From: Terriglobia bacterium | GTDB lineage: Bacteria; Acidobacteriota; Terriglobia; Acidiferrales; UBA7541 | Direction of reading: 5' to 3' | DNA length: 59,517 nucleotides | NCBI GenBank assembly: GCA_020073705.1 | Contig: JAIQES010000025.1 | Span: 1 to 59,517, forward strand | Shown here: in pieces, positions 12,139 to 34,728 of the stretch | Layout of the letters: every line of letters starts with the position of its first letter | Position numbering within the stretch: the stretch's first letter is position 1 | The notes under the pieces: model-generated | Database searches by the model: none | Told to the model about the DNA's origin: nothing | What the model saw: the letters and a program-made list of their open reading frames with translations, nothing else | Program-made: the position numbers and the translations under genes

Positions 12139-13155
12139 TCACGCTTCCGCCCGGCTCAGCAGCATCCGGGTCATTTGTGCGTAGGTATCGACCGCGTCGA
12201 GCAGTTCGCGCTTCGAAATCTTTTCATCTTTCGTGTGGGCCACCTGGATGCTTCCCGGTCCGAACAAGAATGGTTCTCCCCAGGCCGGCGCCAGCACCGG
12301 AATATCGGTCGTGAACGACACCACCGATGTGGGGAAGCCGTCAAGCGACGCGAAGTGCATTGCCGGAAGCGTCAGAATTTTCCTGACCTCCGCGCGGGCT
12401 CCGACCGCCTCTCGCAAAACCTGATCGATTTTACACCCGTCGCCCACAATGCGGATCGCCAGCTCTGCCTTCGCGGCGTCCGGCACGATGTTCGGCGCGC
12501 GGCCGCCGGAGATCGTGCCGATATTCACCGTGGTCCGGCCGAGGACAGGATCTTCCGGAAGCTGCATCCGGCGAATGGCATTGAGTGCATCCAGAAGTTT
12601 TTCAATCGCGGATTCGCCCAGCTCGGGATACGCCGAGTGGGCCATCTTCCCCGTGGCTACGATTTCGTAGCGCAAAATCCCCTTTGAGCCCAGCGCAACC
12701 CTGCTCTCGGTCGGTTCGCCGTCGATCAGGTACCGTGAGCCGTGAGGCGAGCGGGAAGCAACGTCCGCACCGGCGCTGTTCCGCTCTTCTCCAACGACAA
12801 AGAGCAGCCCGAAATTTCGCGTGCCGTTCTCCAGCAGCTTTTCCGCCGCGGCAACCATCGCCGCAATGATTCCCTTGGCGTCGCAGGCGCCGCGACCGTG
12901 GATATACTCTTCGTCCTCGCTTGACGCGATGAAGGGCGGCACCGTGTCCATGTGCGTCGAAAGCACCACGACGGGACGGCCCCATTCGGCATACACGTTG
13001 AAGCGTTCGGACGTCACCGGCATGGCTTCCGCCCGGCCACCGGAGCCCGCCGCAAGCCCGGAGAGATAGCGAAGCAGGAATTCACCAACCTGCTTCTCGT
13101 TCTCCGTGATCGACTCCATGTCGATCAGCGCGCGCGTCATCTCGAATGGGTGCAT
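12139..13155 (-). CDS. dapE: M20 metallopeptidase, probable succinyl-diaminopimelate desuccinylase
   Basis: A 338-residue zinc-dependent amidohydrolase. The M20 signatures are VVLSTHMDTVPPF (first zinc His and nearby Asp, around residue 65), HGRGACDAKGIIAAM (bridging Asp, around 88), LLFVVGEERNSAG (catalytic and metal Glu, around 120) and VAHTKDEKIS near the C-terminus. DapE, ArgE and related acylases share these, so substrate is inferred from position: it is the first gene of dapE-B-A-D and DapD makes succinylated intermediates. That makes desuccinylation of N-succinyl-diaminopimelate the best guess. An ArgE-like role is the alternative. Confidence 0.82.
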   Translation of the reverse strand: MHPFEMTRALIDMESITENEKQVGEFLLRYLSGLAAGSGGRAEAMPVTSERFNVYAEWGRPVVVLSTHMDTVPPFIASSEDEEYIHGRGACDAKGIIAAMVAAAEKLLENGTRNFGLLFVVGEERNSAGADVASRSPHGSRYLIDGEPTESRVALGSKGILRYEIVATGKMAHSAYPELGESAIEKLLDALNAIRRMQLPEDPVLGRTTVNIGTISGGRAPNIVPDAAKAELAIRIVGDGCKIDQVLREAVGARAEVRKILTLPAMHFASLDGFPTSVVSFTTDIPVLAPAWGEPFLFGPGSIQVAHTKDEKISKRELLDAVDTYAQMTRMLLSRAEA

Positions 13156-13232: not shown

Positions 13233-13651
13233 TACTAACCCAGTGACTGATTTAATTCCGGGAAGGAACGGTGCGCAAAGGAAGAAGCAGGGCGCAGACA
13301 AACTCAAGACGCCTCGCTTCTTGATAGCGCTCCATCCGATTCCTCGAATGACAGTGGGCAGGTGTTAGCCACGCCCCCCAGGCGCCTCGGCGAAACTGCC
13401 TTCGGCGACTTCGGCGGAAGATCCTGCTGCACCTTTCGCTCGGACCCCCGAAGCTCCTCGGAACACCGGCCCGGCTACTGTTTGCTTCCGCACCTCTACC
13501 AAAACAACCCCACGATACCACCCCGAATACAACGGGTCAAACTCGCAAAGCCAAAAAGTTGGGCCATTTTGTGAGAATCCAACTAATCAGGAAGTGGCTA
13601 GAGGCAAGTTTCTCGCCTGCCATTTCGCTGATTGTGTTCGGTCTTCTATCT

Positions 13652-16810: not shown

Positions 16811-16900
16811 GGAGTCCCGAAGGGACGTCACAACTTAGCCCACTGCGGAAGCGGTGGGAAAATGGGTCGAGGATGACCAGAAAACCCCGGCAGGGGTGAC
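16811..16900. repeat. Cluster of short palindromes
   Basis: Between the DUF4159 gene and cysN three short palindromes follow each other: AGTCCCGAAGGGACGT, CCCACTGCGGAAGCGGTGGG and CCCCGGCAGGGG. Such stretches recur between genes in related genomes. No T-run follows, so they are not obvious terminators. Confidence 0.5.
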
Positions 16901-27774: not shown

Positions 27775-27882
27775 GGGAGCGTTGTAGATTCGCAGTAGCT
27801 GGACACGTGGCGATTTAAGGCAACTTGCTCCACGTAAAAAACTGCTAAAGAGTCGGACGAGCACTCAGATCAGGTTTTGAGC

Positions 27883-29802: not shown

Positions 29803-29830
29803 TTGACAAATTCGGCGGCTGATTTAAGCT
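29803..29830 (+). promoter_or_regulatory. Candidate promoter for the cysH leader
   Basis: A perfect TTGACA (29803-29808) is followed at 14-16 bases by a weak AT-rich -10 (within GATTTAAGCT). Transcription would start just before the small ORF at 29840. Confidence 0.45.
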
Positions 29831-29839
29831 GTAGAGGCA

Positions 29840-29944
29840 ATGATGACGTTGATTTCCAAGGGAATTACGATTACCACGCGCACGCCCAAGTGTACATGGG
29901 TGGCGCGGACCCCCTTGGGAGCCAAGGATATGCAAACGCAGTAA
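29840..29944 (+). CDS. Leader peptide ORF upstream of cysH
   Basis: An AGAGG site precedes tandem ATGs at 29840 and 29843; the frame runs 34 codons to TAA 29942-29944. The peptide starts MMTLISKGITITTRTPKC and continues TWVARTPLGAKDMQTQ, with a single Cys at position 18. It lies between a TTGACA box and the terminator at 29971, so it has the layout of an attenuator leader. Within it CCTTGG (29913-29918) can pair either with CCAAGG at 29856-29861 or with CCAAGG at 29922-29927. Translation is not proven; I do not recognise the peptide from a named family. Confidence 0.45.
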   Translation: MMTLISKGITITTRTPKCTWVARTPLGAKDMQTQ

Positions 29945-29970
29945 GACAATCCTTCAAGCTCTTAAACGCG

Positions 29971-30007
29971 GCCCGCGAAGCCAAATGCTCGCGGGCGTTT
30001 TTATTTT
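29971..30007 (+). terminator. Intrinsic terminator between leader ORF and cysH
   Basis: GCCCGCGA (29971-29978) pairs perfectly with TCGCGGGC (29989-29996) around a 10-base loop, followed by GTTTTTATTTT. It lies 37 bases before the cysH start and 26 bases after the leader ORF stop, so cysH expression must involve read-through or antitermination. Confidence 0.82.
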
Positions 30008-30044
30008 GGGGCGGAGAGCACACGGAAGGCGCGGACAGAAACCT

Positions 30045-30743
30045 ATGAGCGCAGCGGCACAGGAAAAAATCAGCAACGTGCAGACCGATGCGGAGCGCTG
30101 GAATGCCGGGGAAGTCCTGCGCTGGGGGCTGGGGGAGTTCCATCCGCACGCGGCCATCGCATCGAGCTTTGGCGCGGAGGATGTCGTACTGATTGACCTC
30201 GCGGCCCGGGTGCGCCCGGATCTACGCGTATTCACGTTGGACACGGATTTCCTCTTCGCGGAAACCTATGAGCTGCTCGAGCAGATCGAGAACAAGTACG
30301 GAATCCGCGTCGAACGGATGAAATCTCTGCTGACGCCGGAAAGACAGGCTGAGCTGCACGGGCCGGCGCTGTGGTCGGTTGATCCGAACAAGTGCTGCTC
30401 GCTGCGCAAGGTCGAGCCGCTCAAGGTCAAGCTTAGCGAGCTGACCGCGTGGGCGACAGGCATCCGCCGCGACCAGGCGCCCACGCGCGCGAATGCAAAA
30501 AAAATCGAATGGGATGAAAAATTCGGCCTGGTGAAAATGAATCCGCTGGCGGACTGGACCCGGGACAACGTGTGGGAATACATCCGTGCCAACAACGTGC
30601 CCTATAATCCGCTGCACGAGCAGAATTATCCCAGCATCGGCTGCACATACTGCACGCGCCAAGTACAGCCGGGAGAAGACCCGCGCGCCGGGCGCTGGCC
30701 GGGCTTCGCGAAAAAGGAGTGCGGACTGCACGCTTCGGAGTAA
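30045..30743 (+). CDS. cysH: Adenylylsulfate (APS) reductase, assimilatory
   Basis: A 232-residue enzyme that reduces APS to sulfite using thioredoxin. The ATG at 30045 starts MSAAAQEK and lies after the terminator. The PP-loop-like region is IASSFGAEDVVLIDLA, with VFTLDTDFLFAETYEL next. The iron-sulfur cysteine pairs NKCCSLRKVEPL and IGCTYCTRQVQPGEDPRAGR mark the APS-reducing, [4Fe-4S]-containing type rather than the PAPS type. The catalytic C-terminal motif KKECGLH is present. This fits a CysN whose APS kinase domain is degenerate. Four bases separate it from cysG. Confidence 0.94.
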   Translation: MSAAAQEKISNVQTDAERWNAGEVLRWGLGEFHPHAAIASSFGAEDVVLIDLAARVRPDLRVFTLDTDFLFAETYELLEQIENKYGIRVERMKSLLTPERQAELHGPALWSVDPNKCCSLRKVEPLKVKLSELTAWATGIRRDQAPTRANAKKIEWDEKFGLVKMNPLADWTRDNVWEYIRANNVPYNPLHEQNYPSIGCTYCTRQVQPGEDPRAGRWPGFAKKECGLHASE

Positions 30744-30747
30744 AGAT

Positions 30748-32166
30748 ATGAGTTTGTTTCCCATCTTCGTAAAACTGGATGGCCGGCGGTGCCTGGTGGT
30801 GGGCGCCGGGACCGTGGCCGAGGCGAAGATCGAGAGCCTTCTGGCAACGGCAGCCTCGATACATGTGGTTGCGCCGAAGGCCACGGCCAAGGTGCGTGAA
30901 TGGTCGCGCGAGGGCCGCATCGAGTGGAATGCGCGCGAGTACGTGCCCGAGGATCTTTCCGGTGTGTTCCTGGTGATTGCTGCGACCGGGTCGCCGGCGC
31001 TGCATGACAAGATTTGCGCGGAAGCGCGCCGCAGCGGAGTATTGTGCAATGCAGTGGACGAGCCGCAGCGCTGCGACTTCTACTTCCCTGCCGTGGTGCG
31101 GCGGGGGGAGTTGCAGATTGCCATATCGACAGGGGGATTGAGCCCCGCGCTGGCGCAGCGGCTGCGGAAAGAACTGGAGCAGCAATTTGGTCCGGAATGG
31201 GAACAATGGGTGGCGCAACTCGGTCGAAAGCGCGAAGAGCTTTTGGACATTGCTATGCCTTCGGAACAACGGAAGCGGCTGCTGCACCAGTACGCGAGCC
31301 TGGACCCCGAAGTGCGCTACAGGAATCACGTTGGAGGAGTTGCCACCGGGATGCCTGGAAAAGTTTATCTCGTAGGAGCCGGCCCGGGCGACCCGGAACT
31401 GCTGACACGTAAGGCGTGGCGCGTGTTGCAGTCCGTCGGCGTCGTGTTGCACGATGATTTGGTTTCCGAAGAAATTCTCCGCGTCCTTCCACCAACGGCC
31501 GTGCTGCTGAATGTGGGGAAGCGTTGCGGCGCAAGAAAGATTTCCCAGGCTGAAGTGAACGAGCAGATGGTGAGTCTGGCCCGCGCGGGCAAGGTGGTTG
31601 CGCGCCTCAAGAGTGGCGACCCGCTGCTTTTCGGACGGGCGGGAGAGGAAATGGAAGCGCTGCGGCAGGCAGGTATCGAGTTCGAAGTAATTCCAGGAGT
31701 GACGGCGGCGCTGGGCGCGGCGGGAGCGGCCCGGATTTCGCTCACGGACCGGCGGCATGCTTCGCGCGTCGTATTCGTCACAGCTCATCGCTCGAATGGG
31801 TCGGGATTAACCAATGAGCGGCATGTGGCCGAGGACACCACCTACGTCATCTACATGCCGGGCAACCGTTATGCCGAGCTGGCCGCGGAGCTCGAAGCAG
31901 CGGGAATTGGCGCGCACATTCCGTGTGTTGTGATTTCGCGCGCAACAACCCGCGACGAGACGATTTACCGGACCACGGTCGGAAAATTGCCCAAGTGTCC
32001 GGCGGCGGTAGCGCCGTCTCTGCTGGTCGTTGGATACGTCGCGGGCGCACCGGCAGGCGAAGAAACGCGCGAGGGAGAGCTTTCGAGCGAGCTTTGCCCG
32101 GAAATTGTGAGTCTTGCAATGCAACATCCATTTCATAATTCCTACGGGAGGGGCAGTGTCGAATAA
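30748..32166 (+). CDS. cysG: Siroheme synthase: precorrin-2 dehydrogenase plus uroporphyrinogen-III methyltransferase
   Basis: A 472-residue fusion that makes siroheme for sulfite reductase. Residues 1-215 are the SirC/Met8-like dehydrogenase-chelatase (FVKLDGRRCLVVGAGTVAEA, CNAVDEPQRCDFYFPAVVRR, ISTGGLSPALAQRLRKELE). From about residue 215 comes the CobA/SUMT domain (VYLVGAGPGDPELLTRKAW, VVARLKSGDPLLFGRAGEE, VIPGVTAALGAAGAARISLT). The ATG at 30748 follows cysH by four bases. The end overlaps the asd start at 32156 by 11 bases. No sulfite reductase gene is in the window. Confidence 0.94.
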   Translation: MSLFPIFVKLDGRRCLVVGAGTVAEAKIESLLATAASIHVVAPKATAKVREWSREGRIEWNAREYVPEDLSGVFLVIAATGSPALHDKICAEARRSGVLCNAVDEPQRCDFYFPAVVRRGELQIAISTGGLSPALAQRLRKELEQQFGPEWEQWVAQLGRKREELLDIAMPSEQRKRLLHQYASLDPEVRYRNHVGGVATGMPGKVYLVGAGPGDPELLTRKAWRVLQSVGVVLHDDLVSEEILRVLPPTAVLLNVGKRCGARKISQAEVNEQMVSLARAGKVVARLKSGDPLLFGRAGEEMEALRQAGIEFEVIPGVTAALGAAGAARISLTDRRHASRVVFVTAHRSNGSGLTNERHVAEDTTYVIYMPGNRYAELAAELEAAGIGAHIPCVVISRATTRDETIYRTTVGKLPKCPAAVAPSLLVVGYVAGAPAGEETREGELSSELCPEIVSLAMQHPFHNSYGRGSVE

Positions 32167-33265
32167 TCGAGTGCGGGTGGGAATTCTGGGCGCGACCGGA
32201 ATGGTCGGCCAGCGTTTCGTGCAGTTGTTGGCGAACCATCCAGGGTTCGTGGTGACGGCGCTGGCAGCGTCGGACCGTTCGCAGGGAAAGCCGTATGGCG
32301 AAGCCTGTACGTGGCGGCTGGTGGGCGACATGCCGCCATTAGTGAGGCCAATGGTGGTCCAGTCGCCGCAGCCGCCGCTGGAATGTGACGTGGTGCTCTC
32401 CAGCTTGCCTTCCGATATCGCGCGAGCCGCGGAAGAAAGCTTCGCGCGCGCCGGCTATCCGGTGATCAGCAACGCGTCTTCATTCCGCATGGACGCCGAC
32501 GTTCCGCTCTTGATTCCCGAAATCAATGCAGACCATCTGGACGTTCTCCCGCGACAACGGAGGGAAAGAGGATTCGGCGACGGCTATATTGTCACGAACC
32601 CGAATTGCTCGACAATTATCATGGCTCTAGCGCTGGCGCCTCTCCACCAGCGATTCGGCATCGAAGCAGTCGTGGCGACAACCCTCCAAGCGGTTTCGGG
32701 CGCCGGCTACCCGGGCGTGCCGTCGCTTGACGTCGTCGACAACGTGCTTCCCTTCATCGACGGGGAAGAAGCAAAAATGGAGCGCGAGACACGAAAAATT
32801 CTTGGCCGCCTGGGGCACACCGCATTCGAGGACGCTGCCTTTGTGGTCAGCGCGCAATGTCATCGCGTGAACGTCGCCGACGGACACACGGTGGCAGTGC
32901 GCGTGAAGCTGTGCAAGCGCGCTAGCATCACGGAAGTTCGCGAAGCGCTCTCCGCATACCGGTCTGTTCCGCAGGAACTGCGCCTCCATTCCGCTCCGGA
33001 GCGGCCCGTCATCGTGCGGGATGAGAATGACCGGCCGCAGCCGCGCCTGGACCGCGATACGGGCGGAGGCATGAGCGTGACGGTGGGGCGGCTGTTTCCT
33101 GACAGCGTGCTCGACTACCGTTTCGTTGTCCTGGGACACAATACGATCCGCGGCGCAGCCGGCGCGGCGATTCTGAATGCCGAACTGCTGCAGGCTCGCG
33201 GCCTGCTCGAAGGGAAATCGGCGCGGGAAGATACAACAGCCACCGCCCAGGCGAGGTTGCGATGA
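32156..33265 (+). CDS. asd: Aspartate-semialdehyde dehydrogenase
   Basis: A 369-residue NADP-dependent enzyme. The GTG at 32156 has GGGAGGGG upstream and gives a proper start just before the Rossmann loop (VRVGILGATGMVGQRFVQLL); an ATG at 32114 is out of line with the ribosome site. The catalytic cysteine is in VTNPNCSTIIMALALAPLH (around residue 146), and the substrate-binding histidine region is QCHRVNVADGH. The sequence is closest to the archaeal/fungal subclass. It turns aspartyl phosphate into the semialdehyde used by the dap operon at 9.6-13.2 kb and by threonine/methionine synthesis. It overlaps cysG and lysC, so sulfur reduction and the aspartate pathway share a transcript. Confidence 0.93.
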   Translation: MSNNRVRVGILGATGMVGQRFVQLLANHPGFVVTALAASDRSQGKPYGEACTWRLVGDMPPLVRPMVVQSPQPPLECDVVLSSLPSDIARAAEESFARAGYPVISNASSFRMDADVPLLIPEINADHLDVLPRQRRERGFGDGYIVTNPNCSTIIMALALAPLHQRFGIEAVVATTLQAVSGAGYPGVPSLDVVDNVLPFIDGEEAKMERETRKILGRLGHTAFEDAAFVVSAQCHRVNVADGHTVAVRVKLCKRASITEVREALSAYRSVPQELRLHSAPERPVIVRDENDRPQPRLDRDTGGGMSVTVGRLFPDSVLDYRFVVLGHNTIRGAAGAAILNAELLQARGLLEGKSAREDTTATAQARLR

Positions 33266-34728
33266 GCCGCCCGATTCAAGTGATGAAGTTCGGCGGCACG
33301 TCGGTCGGCGACGCCAAGCGAATCCGGAACGCGGCCACGATCGCCGCGGAGGCTTCGAAGCAGCGCTCCGTGGTTGTAGTCGTTTCGGCGATGTCGGGGG
33401 TGACAAACACACTCATCTCCGCAGCGGGAAAGGCAGCGACTGGAAATGAAGCCGCGGCAGAGGCACTCGCCAAAGCCCTCCAAACAAAGCACCGGGAAAC
33501 GATCGAAGCGCTGATTTCAGACGGCGAACAGCGCCGGGAACTGCTCGATGAAATAGACGTATTGATCGATCGGGCCGCGAACTATTGCCGAGGATGCGCG
33601 TTGCTCGGCGAACTCTCACCCCGCGCGCTGGACGTAATTGCGGGCTCCGGCGAGCGGATTTGCGCGCGAATTGCAGCCGCCGTGCTTCGCCAGATGGGGT
33701 ACCGTGGCGTGGCGTTCGACGCGACCGATCTGATTGTGACCGATGAGGTCCACGGCGGCGCGCGGCCGCTGGCCGGGCCAACGCGTGAGAAAACGCGGGC
33801 CGCGCTGCTGCCCCTGATCGAAGGGGGCGGAATTCCCGTCGTCACGGGATACATTGCCGCCACCGCCAAGGGTGTTCCCACGACGCTGGGCCGCGGCGGA
33901 TCTGATTTTTCCGCCACGATTCTGGGCGCGGCGCTCGACGCAGAAGACGTCATCATCTGGACCGATGTGAACGGAGTGCAGACGGCGGACCCAAGGATGG
34001 TCCCCGAAGCCGTTACGCTCGACGAGGTTTCCTACGCGGAGGCGGGCGAGTTGGCGTTCTTCGGTGCGAAGGTACTGCACCCGATGACACTGCGCCCCGT
34101 GGTCGATAGTGGGATCCCGGTATGGATTCGCAACAGCTTCGAGCCACACAAGGCTGGAACCAAAATCACGCAGACGGCTCGCCCGACGCCGCATGGCGTA
34201 AAGGCGGTTACCGCGACCCGCGACGTAGCCATGATCGCGGTTGCGGGCCCTGGGATCATCGGCGTGCCGGACATCGCGGCGCGCATTTTTGCCGCGTCCG
34301 CCTCGGTCCGCGCAAACATCGTGATGATTTCGCAATCGTCTTCGCAGGACAACATCTGCTTCGTGGTGCAGGCAGCGGACGCCGTCCGCACGGAGAAAGC
34401 GCTGCGGGATGCTCTGCATGAAGACGTGCGCCACCATGACCTCGAACACGTCAAGGTGAATCGGAATGTGGCCATCGTCGCGGCGGTCGGTGAAAAAATG
34501 TGCGGCACTCCGGGCATCGCCGGGCGCGTCTTCAGCACCATGGGCAACGAAGGCGTCAACATCATCGCCATCGCGCAGGGGTCATCGGAATATAACATCT
34601 CGTTTCTAGTGGAATCGAGCGGCATGGAGAAAGCCGTCAAGGCGCTGCATCGGGCCTTCGGCCTCGGCCAGGTGGAATCGGGAGAAAAAGCAAGCACGGC
34701 CGCACAGGTGACCTCGAAAACCGCTTGA
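33262..34728 (+). CDS. lysC: Aspartate kinase
   Basis: A 488-residue enzyme for the first step of the aspartate family. The N-terminal signature is MKFGGTSVGDAKRIRNAA (around residue 8); the catalytic core includes TTLGRGGSDFSATILGAALD (around residue 210) and NGVQTADPRMVPEA. Two ACT domains end the protein (AVAGPGIIGVPDIAARIFAA and AAVGEKMCGTPGIAGRVFST), so feedback control by lysine or threonine is likely. It is not fused to homoserine dehydrogenase. Its start overlaps the asd stop (ATGA). Last gene of the operon; no clear terminator follows. Confidence 0.95.
   Translation: MSRPIQVMKFGGTSVGDAKRIRNAATIAAEASKQRSVVVVVSAMSGVTNTLISAAGKAATGNEAAAEALAKALQTKHRETIEALISDGEQRRELLDEIDVLIDRAANYCRGCALLGELSPRALDVIAGSGERICARIAAAVLRQMGYRGVAFDATDLIVTDEVHGGARPLAGPTREKTRAALLPLIEGGGIPVVTGYIAATAKGVPTTLGRGGSDFSATILGAALDAEDVIIWTDVNGVQTADPRMVPEAVTLDEVSYAEAGELAFFGAKVLHPMTLRPVVDSGIPVWIRNSFEPHKAGTKITQTARPTPHGVKAVTATRDVAMIAVAGPGIIGVPDIAARIFAASASVRANIVMISQSSSQDNICFVVQAADAVRTEKALRDALHEDVRHHDLEHVKVNRNVAIVAAVGEKMCGTPGIAGRVFSTMGNEGVNIIAIAQGSSEYNISFLVESSGMEKAVKALHRAFGLGQVESGEKASTAAQVTSKTA

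Follow-up and report, generated by a model that had tools for sequence, protein, structure and literature searches.

A putative Thr/Ile-sensing attenuator ahead of cysH-cysG-asd-lysC in an acidobacterium

Introduction

Which amino acid, if any, is read by a short open reading frame (ORF) that lies between a promoter and an intrinsic terminator, ahead of genes for both sulfate reduction and aspartate-family synthesis? The question arises at a locus of Terriglobia bacterium (Acidobacteriota), where a preliminary description of a 59,517-nucleotide stretch of DNA (hereafter the window) had proposed that the position of a ribosome on such an ORF, or a ligand, decides read-through into cysH, and had pointed to the cysteine-sensing leaders of mycobacteria. 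Leader-peptide attenuators are textbook regulation: the E. coli thrL-thrABC attenuator, represented in Rfam as Thr_leader, has a Thr/Ile-rich leader peptide, and in attenuators of the E. coli ilvGMEDA type one leader senses several amino acids. Mycobacteria, for their part, reportedly carry poly-Cys leaderless short ORFs, said to have been described by Canestrari et al. in 2020 (cited in PMC9094748).

PMC1262725 treats cys leader peptides of Actinobacteria and gives no conserved terminator hairpins for them in Mycobacterium, and PMC2965389 reports for Acidobacteria that almost none of the predicted attenuators had associated functions. A literature search found Thr/Ile attenuators not assigned to Acidobacteria in the accessible portions of PMC2965389, PMC4833913, PMC1262725, PMC9094748 and PMC12452182, and an earlier prediction is possible (2010 survey, Lopatovskaya et al., cited in PMC4833913).

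Results

Architecture of the leader

Family searches of the window place the leader between thrC-like and ThiS-like genes upstream and four plus-strand genes downstream, whose identities (NCBIfam/Pfam) agree with the preliminary description: cysH, a (P)APS reductase (30045-30743), cysG, a siroheme synthase (longest ORF 30586-32166, family match from about 30757), asd, an aspartate-semialdehyde dehydrogenase (longest ORF 32114-33265), and lysC, an aspartate kinase (33262-34728). The promoter consists of a -35 element TTGACA (29803-29808), a 16-nt spacer and a -10 element TAAGCT (29825-29830). The -10 is a weak match and a promoter scan of the window listed nothing at the leader; in an alignment, read by eye, of the four leader-bearing members of the genus (g1: G000, the genome of the window, with G001, G004 and G005), all four share the same -35 and retain TAnnCT at the -10. 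With 9 nt between the end of the -10 and the ATG, transcription probably starts 2-4 nt before the latter, and we infer from this promoter geometry a near-leaderless start of translation; the ribosome site that had been described for the ORF is thus not upheld.

The leader ORF (frame F1) runs for 34 codons from ATG at 29840 to TAA at 29944 on the plus strand and encodes MMTLISKGITITTRTPKCTWVARTPLGAKDMQTQ, with 8 Thr, 3 Ile and 1 Cys; Thr and Ile make up 0.33 of the peptide, a fraction equalled by no other ORF among the 193 window ORFs of similar size (28-41 aa). Stalling computations lead us to propose as sensing codons the Thr/Ile run at codons 9-15 (I T I T T R T, 29864-29884), and the single Cys codon, number 18 as previously reported (29891-29893), lies at the edge of the in silico antitermination window. 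Within the transcript, a protector strand A (CCAAGGG, 29856-29862) is predicted to pair with strand B (CCCTTGG, 29912-29918), for which CCAAGG at 29922-29927 is the other partner. A predicted inner helix (29877-29887 with 29898-29907) would sequester the antiterminator strand CGCGGACC (29904-29911), itself predicted to pair with GGCCCGCG at 29970-29977, and a further predicted hairpin, C:D, joins 29919-29929 to 29949-29961. The sequence elements on which the preliminary description was built are all found where it had placed them, including TTGACA, the ORF, CCTTGG (29913-29918), both copies of CCAAGG (29856-29861 and 29922-29927), CGCGG (29904-29908), CCGCG (29973-29977) and the cysH ATG at 30045.

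The intrinsic terminator (29971-30007), recognised from its sequence and its conservation in the genus, has a stem of 29971-29978 with 29989-29996 followed by a T-rich tract. It was not listed by a simple terminator scan of the window, probably because its stem is bulged, and a second finder returned none for G044, G000, G005 or G001; a looser finder gave a hairpin at -19.2 kcal/mol. The locus has a short ORF, in which Thr/Ile codons are over-represented, between a promoter and an intrinsic terminator and ahead of an amino-acid operon. As already stated in the preliminary description, its sequence is not of a recognised kind: Rfam searches at gathering and relaxed thresholds gave the leader chance-level matches only (for example Trp_leader, E 1.3), with no match to Thr_leader above the gathering score or to the described riboswitch classes in Rfam, and a Pfam/NCBIfam search with the peptide gave no match.

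Other RNA elements occur in the same neighbourhood. Directly before thrC-thiS lies a SAM-II/SAM_alpha-like RNA (27797-27869, plus strand; 25.0 bits against a gathering score of 36), in which about 70 nt do not vary among the four genus members; a terminator-like hairpin comes next. Elsewhere, at L111 and L108, a thrC homologue (68-70% identical) carries a SAM-I riboswitch above the gathering score. SAM-type RNAs before thrC genes suggest that the ThrC-like protein and the ThiS-like carrier serve methionine/homocysteine synthesis. On the minus strand, the window also holds a lysine riboswitch (13317-13506) before a DapE/ArgE-like gene (12139-13155), a class found at L071-L073 too, and an Acido-Lenti-1 RNA above the gathering score (16813-16858).

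Conservation within the genus

Promoter, 34-codon ORF and terminator are present together in 4 of the 6 genomes of the genus, and ATG and open frame are kept in all four. A peptide search of 151 genomes matched the three further same-genus genomes at 70-73% identity, its other matches (E 0.019 or more) being taken as chance; the remaining members, G002 and G003 (72% and 71% complete), had no credible leader match, the G003 contig stopping just before asd. Pairwise identity in the genus is 0.87 across the leader and 0.80 across the promoter, against 0.57 before the promoter and 0.41 after the terminator, which suggests that the leader is conserved more than chance would give. Gene order around the leader in the three relatives, as seen by tblastn, is thrC-thiS-(cysH)-cysG-asd-lysC: cysG-asd-lysC follows the leader in 4/4, and cysH is missing at this place in G004 and G005. 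The asd gene behind the G004 leader (L078, G004:C99:83459-84601) carries one in-frame TGA, which may be an assembly error or a lesion.

No compensatory change was seen at any helix pair across the four sequences, hairpin C:D included. Loops and third codon positions are well conserved too. A search with model R1, built on the four genus members, recovered only those four among 399 class genomes (strict filters, 8 candidates scored per genome). An exact-pattern search of genome contigs gave five loci, three being known genus members and the other two (L066, L070) scoring at R1 noise level; the same search of viral contigs gave no locus, and no such leader was reached through CysH orthologues in g7.

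Thr/Ile leaders before lysC-asd in relatives

We scanned 47 family genomes (47 loci) for Thr/Ile-rich ORFs before a terminator and upstream of asd or lysC, and found 29 clear leaders in the sister genus g5, three others (G012, G037, G042) and 15 loci without a convincing leader (including G015); several of the 47 loci also gave spurious ORFs. A Thr/Ile-rich leader and terminator thus precede lysC-asd in 29 of the 30 g5 genomes scanned, and the leader of the thirtieth, G060, was found afterwards with model R2, as was that of G033. These g5 leaders, such as MLSIATKRITSKSSMSTTSTTTKTTISASGAWRNS, occupy a single place before lysC, are alignable and share a common terminator; Thr and Ile form 34% of their residues, a richness that is no independent result because the leaders were selected for it. 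Their nucleotide sequence and length vary while the Thr/Ile codons are kept, and of the two remaining frames one is open in just 8/29 and the other in 7/29.

Model R2 was built from 29 leaders, leaving out G044, G037 and G079 (whose stretch is identical to that of G036), and did not find the cysH leader when run against the window. The case for relating the window leader to the g5 leaders is therefore made by its N-terminus, its position and the order of the genes; KRIT or KGIT occurs in 19 of 29 g5 leaders, KGIT in three of the four g1 leaders and KGIM in that of G004.

Antiterminator pairing and ribosome stalling in silico

In g5, the end of the ORF is predicted to pair with the 5' arm and loop of the terminator. 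Antiterminator energies were compared with 300 dinucleotide shuffles for 35 leaders (28 from g5, G012, G037, G042 and the four of g1, whose terminator was defined by motif; G044 was left out), and were better at p<=0.05 in 30 of them (median z -5.8; g5 alone, -6.1). The exceptions were G037 and all four g1 members; in g1 the duplex does not outdo shuffled sequence (z -0.6 to -1.1, p 0.15-0.24). The CGCGG:CCGCG pairing of the preliminary description is the likely antiterminator there. When the g5 antiterminator was held in a fixed register, 84% of cells pair as against 30-53% when it is slid, with no covariation in excess of shuffles; in the g5 terminator, one pair is changed on both sides.

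We then placed a ribosome on each codon in a folding model whose footprint extends 13 nt beyond the first base of the codon in the A site and in which the free RNA folds prior to synthesis of the 3' arm; the model is a non-kinetic one, with assumed values for footprint and energies. Across the 29 g5 leaders, mean antiterminator pairing was 0.72 with the ribosome at Thr/Ile codons, 0.48 at other codons and 0.28 without a ribosome, and fell to 0.03 once the stop codon occupied the A site; the on-zone covers most of the ORF and ends approximately where the Thr/Ile codons end. In g1, a stall at codons 10-11 would free the antiterminator in 4/4 and at codon 12 in 3/4, codons 13-15 being weak (codon 10 of G004 is Met), and a second window appears at codons 17-18 (about 0.9 in 4/4), in a computation that sets codons after 18 to zero by construction. 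Thr/Ile codons account for 33 of the 58 g1 codons at which a stalled ribosome leaves the antiterminator free, as against 10 of 71 elsewhere.

A second measure, in which the terminator arm is scored as paired upstream, gave G000 an on-zone of codons 10-18 (0.56-0.67), with Cys codon 18 as its last codon (0.56, then 0.30). This measure returned a switch result for 22 of 23 leaders (none for G060); contrast between on-zone and stop was poor for G037 (1.00 to 0.55) and for two leaders before cysD-cysN considered below, those of the window (0.52 to 0.42) and of G001 (0.91 to 0.54), and modest for G012, G033, G042 and G000:C32. With the full terminator included, and a footprint 2 nt longer than in the codon-window computation, equilibrium favours the antiterminator in just two members, G000 (codons 9-10) and G001 (codon 10), and not in G004 or G005; the model therefore works only if it counts which part of the RNA is made first.

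Leaders with other repeated residues

Of the 399 class genomes, 150 had an R2 match at E<=0.1; among the matches listed, many extend over the terminator alone. We chose 20 places for high score or near-full length, of which 18 were leader-like, and identified the next gene by family search (by eye for G282, G353, G381, G057 and G004). Thr/Ile(Met) leaders stand before lysC or asd in G335, G317, G282, G367, G353, G024, G060 and G033, His leaders before hisI/hisG genes in G256 and G381, and a Val/Leu/Ile leader before ilvD-ilvB in G213. Cys leaders precede sulfite reductase (G276) and rhodanese (G064, G057), and also an NMT1-like binding protein (G001) and outer-membrane proteins (G000, G005, G004), where a fit to sulfur is not evident. 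These findings suggest a simple code in which the repeated residue of a leader often tells the pathway of the next gene.

The Cys-rich leaders L182 (G000:C32:6106-6196, minus strand), L184 and L185 share the terminator plan and lie before outer-membrane proteins (a porin; an OMP beta-barrel in L184); leaders of this kind perhaps serve sulfur-source uptake. Upstream of 5805 in G059 (g4), L074, reached via a CysH orthologue, is a Cys-rich leader, MHCVCHWSCCCPAASRASRSGSM, with a terminator before cysH-cysG. The window itself contains, on the minus strand, a Cys leader (20016-19921; VNLVAHPAKSAACCCCCRTAGSGCLPTGWIR, with CCCCC; its GTG start is a guess) followed by a terminator (19882-19845) and by cysD and cysN, and G001 has a relative of it with CCC.

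Discussion

We propose, with a probability of roughly 0.7, that the window leader is a ribosome-mediated transcription attenuator of the thrL kind that senses Thr/Ile, a reading with which an input from Cys at codon 18 is compatible. RNA polymerase would start just before the leader ORF and a ribosome would follow. With ample charged tRNA-Thr and tRNA-Ile, the ribosome would reach the stop codon, A:B and the inner helix would close behind it and hide CGCGGACC, and the terminator would act. With Thr or Ile short, it would stall within codons 9-15, best at 10-12, where it masks the 5' side of the inner helix as well as strand A; the antiterminator strand, now free, would pair with the terminator 5' arm (29970-29977), allowing read-through into cysH-cysG-asd-lysC. 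The signal would then be Thr/Ile supply, and the outcome would depend on co-transcriptional timing. Of the preliminary proposal, the leader ORF, the alternative helices, the terminator and ribosome position as the likely switch are retained, and cysteine as the sensed residue is not. Against a Thr/Ile reading stands the first downstream gene, which is cysH rather than a Thr gene.

Does the genus alignment point to translation of frame F1 at all? Synonymous changes, a supporting rather than strictly required sign of an attenuator, and one that the preliminary description had looked to, do not mark the peptide frame: pairwise comparison of codons in the F1 core gives 3 synonymous and 31 non-synonymous differences, which counts against our reading. 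For the frame at offset +2 (NDDVDFQGNYDYHAHAQVYMGGADPLGSQGY...), the core figures are 17 and 15; this frame is open in 4/4, and in G005 its ORF also extends upstream, as might be expected were it translated as a Tyr-containing leader or as part of a longer protein. We consider this very improbable, as the offset frame has no ATG, GTG or TTG between the -10 and the leader, has, in the alignment, a single additional base in G000 close to its 3' end, and is closed in 22 of 29 g5 relatives. Of the 12 variable sites of the F1 core, six are second codon positions, where many of the F1 changes are C/T; several amount to Thr/Ile/Met exchanges, a kind also found between g5 leaders. Post hoc, and from four sequences only, we read the F1 changes as a putative exchange of equivalent sensing codons, as between g5 leaders. 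The mostly non-synonymous F1 substitutions would also suit a ligand-binding riboswitch, whose RNA would respond to a metabolite, the ORF being incidental, as would the fall in identity outside the leader and the conservation, by eye, of stretches outside the predicted helices at about the level of the helices. Such a riboswitch nevertheless seems rather unlikely given that Rfam matches stay at chance level, that start codon and open frame persist in 4/4 around a strongly Thr/Ile-rich peptide, and that the g5 lysC-asd leaders vary in sequence and length yet keep their Thr/Ile codons.

If a ribosome does read F1, the residue to which it responds could instead be cysteine, a stall at codon 18 freeing the antiterminator and turning on cysH-cysG. 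Both genes do lie downstream, codons 17-18 form the second in silico window in all four members, and the Cys codon closes the on-zone of G000; this alternative is nonetheless improbable, as is the mycobacterium-like sensing first suggested, with one Cys set against 11 Thr/Ile and with relatives whose leaders at lysC-asd are rich in Thr/Ile. In this window and genus, the Cys leaders have 3-6 Cys codons, in runs that the cysH leader lacks (CCCCC before cysD-cysN; ACLCCLCC elsewhere in the same genome), a further one has CCCC before sulfite reductase-cysG (G276), and asd-lysC always follows the g1 leader, whereas cysH is absent at this place in 2/4. A special case of the Thr/Ile reading is a composite attenuator, with codons 9-15 reading Thr/Ile, codon 18 reading cysteine and shortage of either inducing, and this we regard as a tentative possibility. 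It would account for the two in silico windows, codons 10-11(12) and 17-18, in 4/4, and it finds the same mix in genus g12, whose leaders hold Thr, Ile and Met with 2-3 Cys: that of G042 has ATIMCTTMKCMC before sir-asd-cysG and that of G033 RTTIMGTCHKCI before asd-cysG. Counted by hand, Thr/Ile leaders of mixed operons contain Cys in 6/6 cases and the others in 7/38 (Fisher p 0.0002 on these counts), but the six come from two genera and are not independent, and operon content was checked in just 14 of the 38. The Thr/Ile run closes with a Cys in some lysC leaders too (G317, G282), and conservation of the g1 Cys codon says little because it sits in an invariant stretch.

Like E. coli thrL-thrABC, the window leader combines a Thr/Ile-rich peptide, alternative helices, a terminator and aspartate-pathway genes; it differs in having no Rfam match, in its phylum, in its first genes (cysH-cysG, then asd-lysC), in an ORF that runs past the antiterminator strand and in its probably near-leaderless start. 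The last feature, and a short ORF ahead of sulfur genes, it shares with mycobacterial poly-Cys and actinobacterial cys leaders; unlike the mycobacterial poly-Cys leaders, it has one Cys, a dominance of Thr/Ile and an intrinsic terminator. As in the E. coli ilvGMEDA type, several amino acids would be read by one leader, here for the Asp family and possibly cysteine.

With the window leader, genes for sulfate reduction and for aspartate-family synthesis are joined into a single unit. On the composite reading, whose chances we put clearly below even, this joint operon would supply sulfide and aspartate semialdehyde together for homocysteine/methionine, and its leader would be one of a broader group in Acidobacteria whose members have their antiterminator-terminator plan in common and differ in interchangeable sensing codons (His, Val/Leu/Ile, Cys, Thr/Ile). 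The leader offers a clear test, namely whether it responds to Thr/Ile, to Cys or to both, and a residue-to-pathway code of this kind could make regulation readable in many uncultured soil bacteria.
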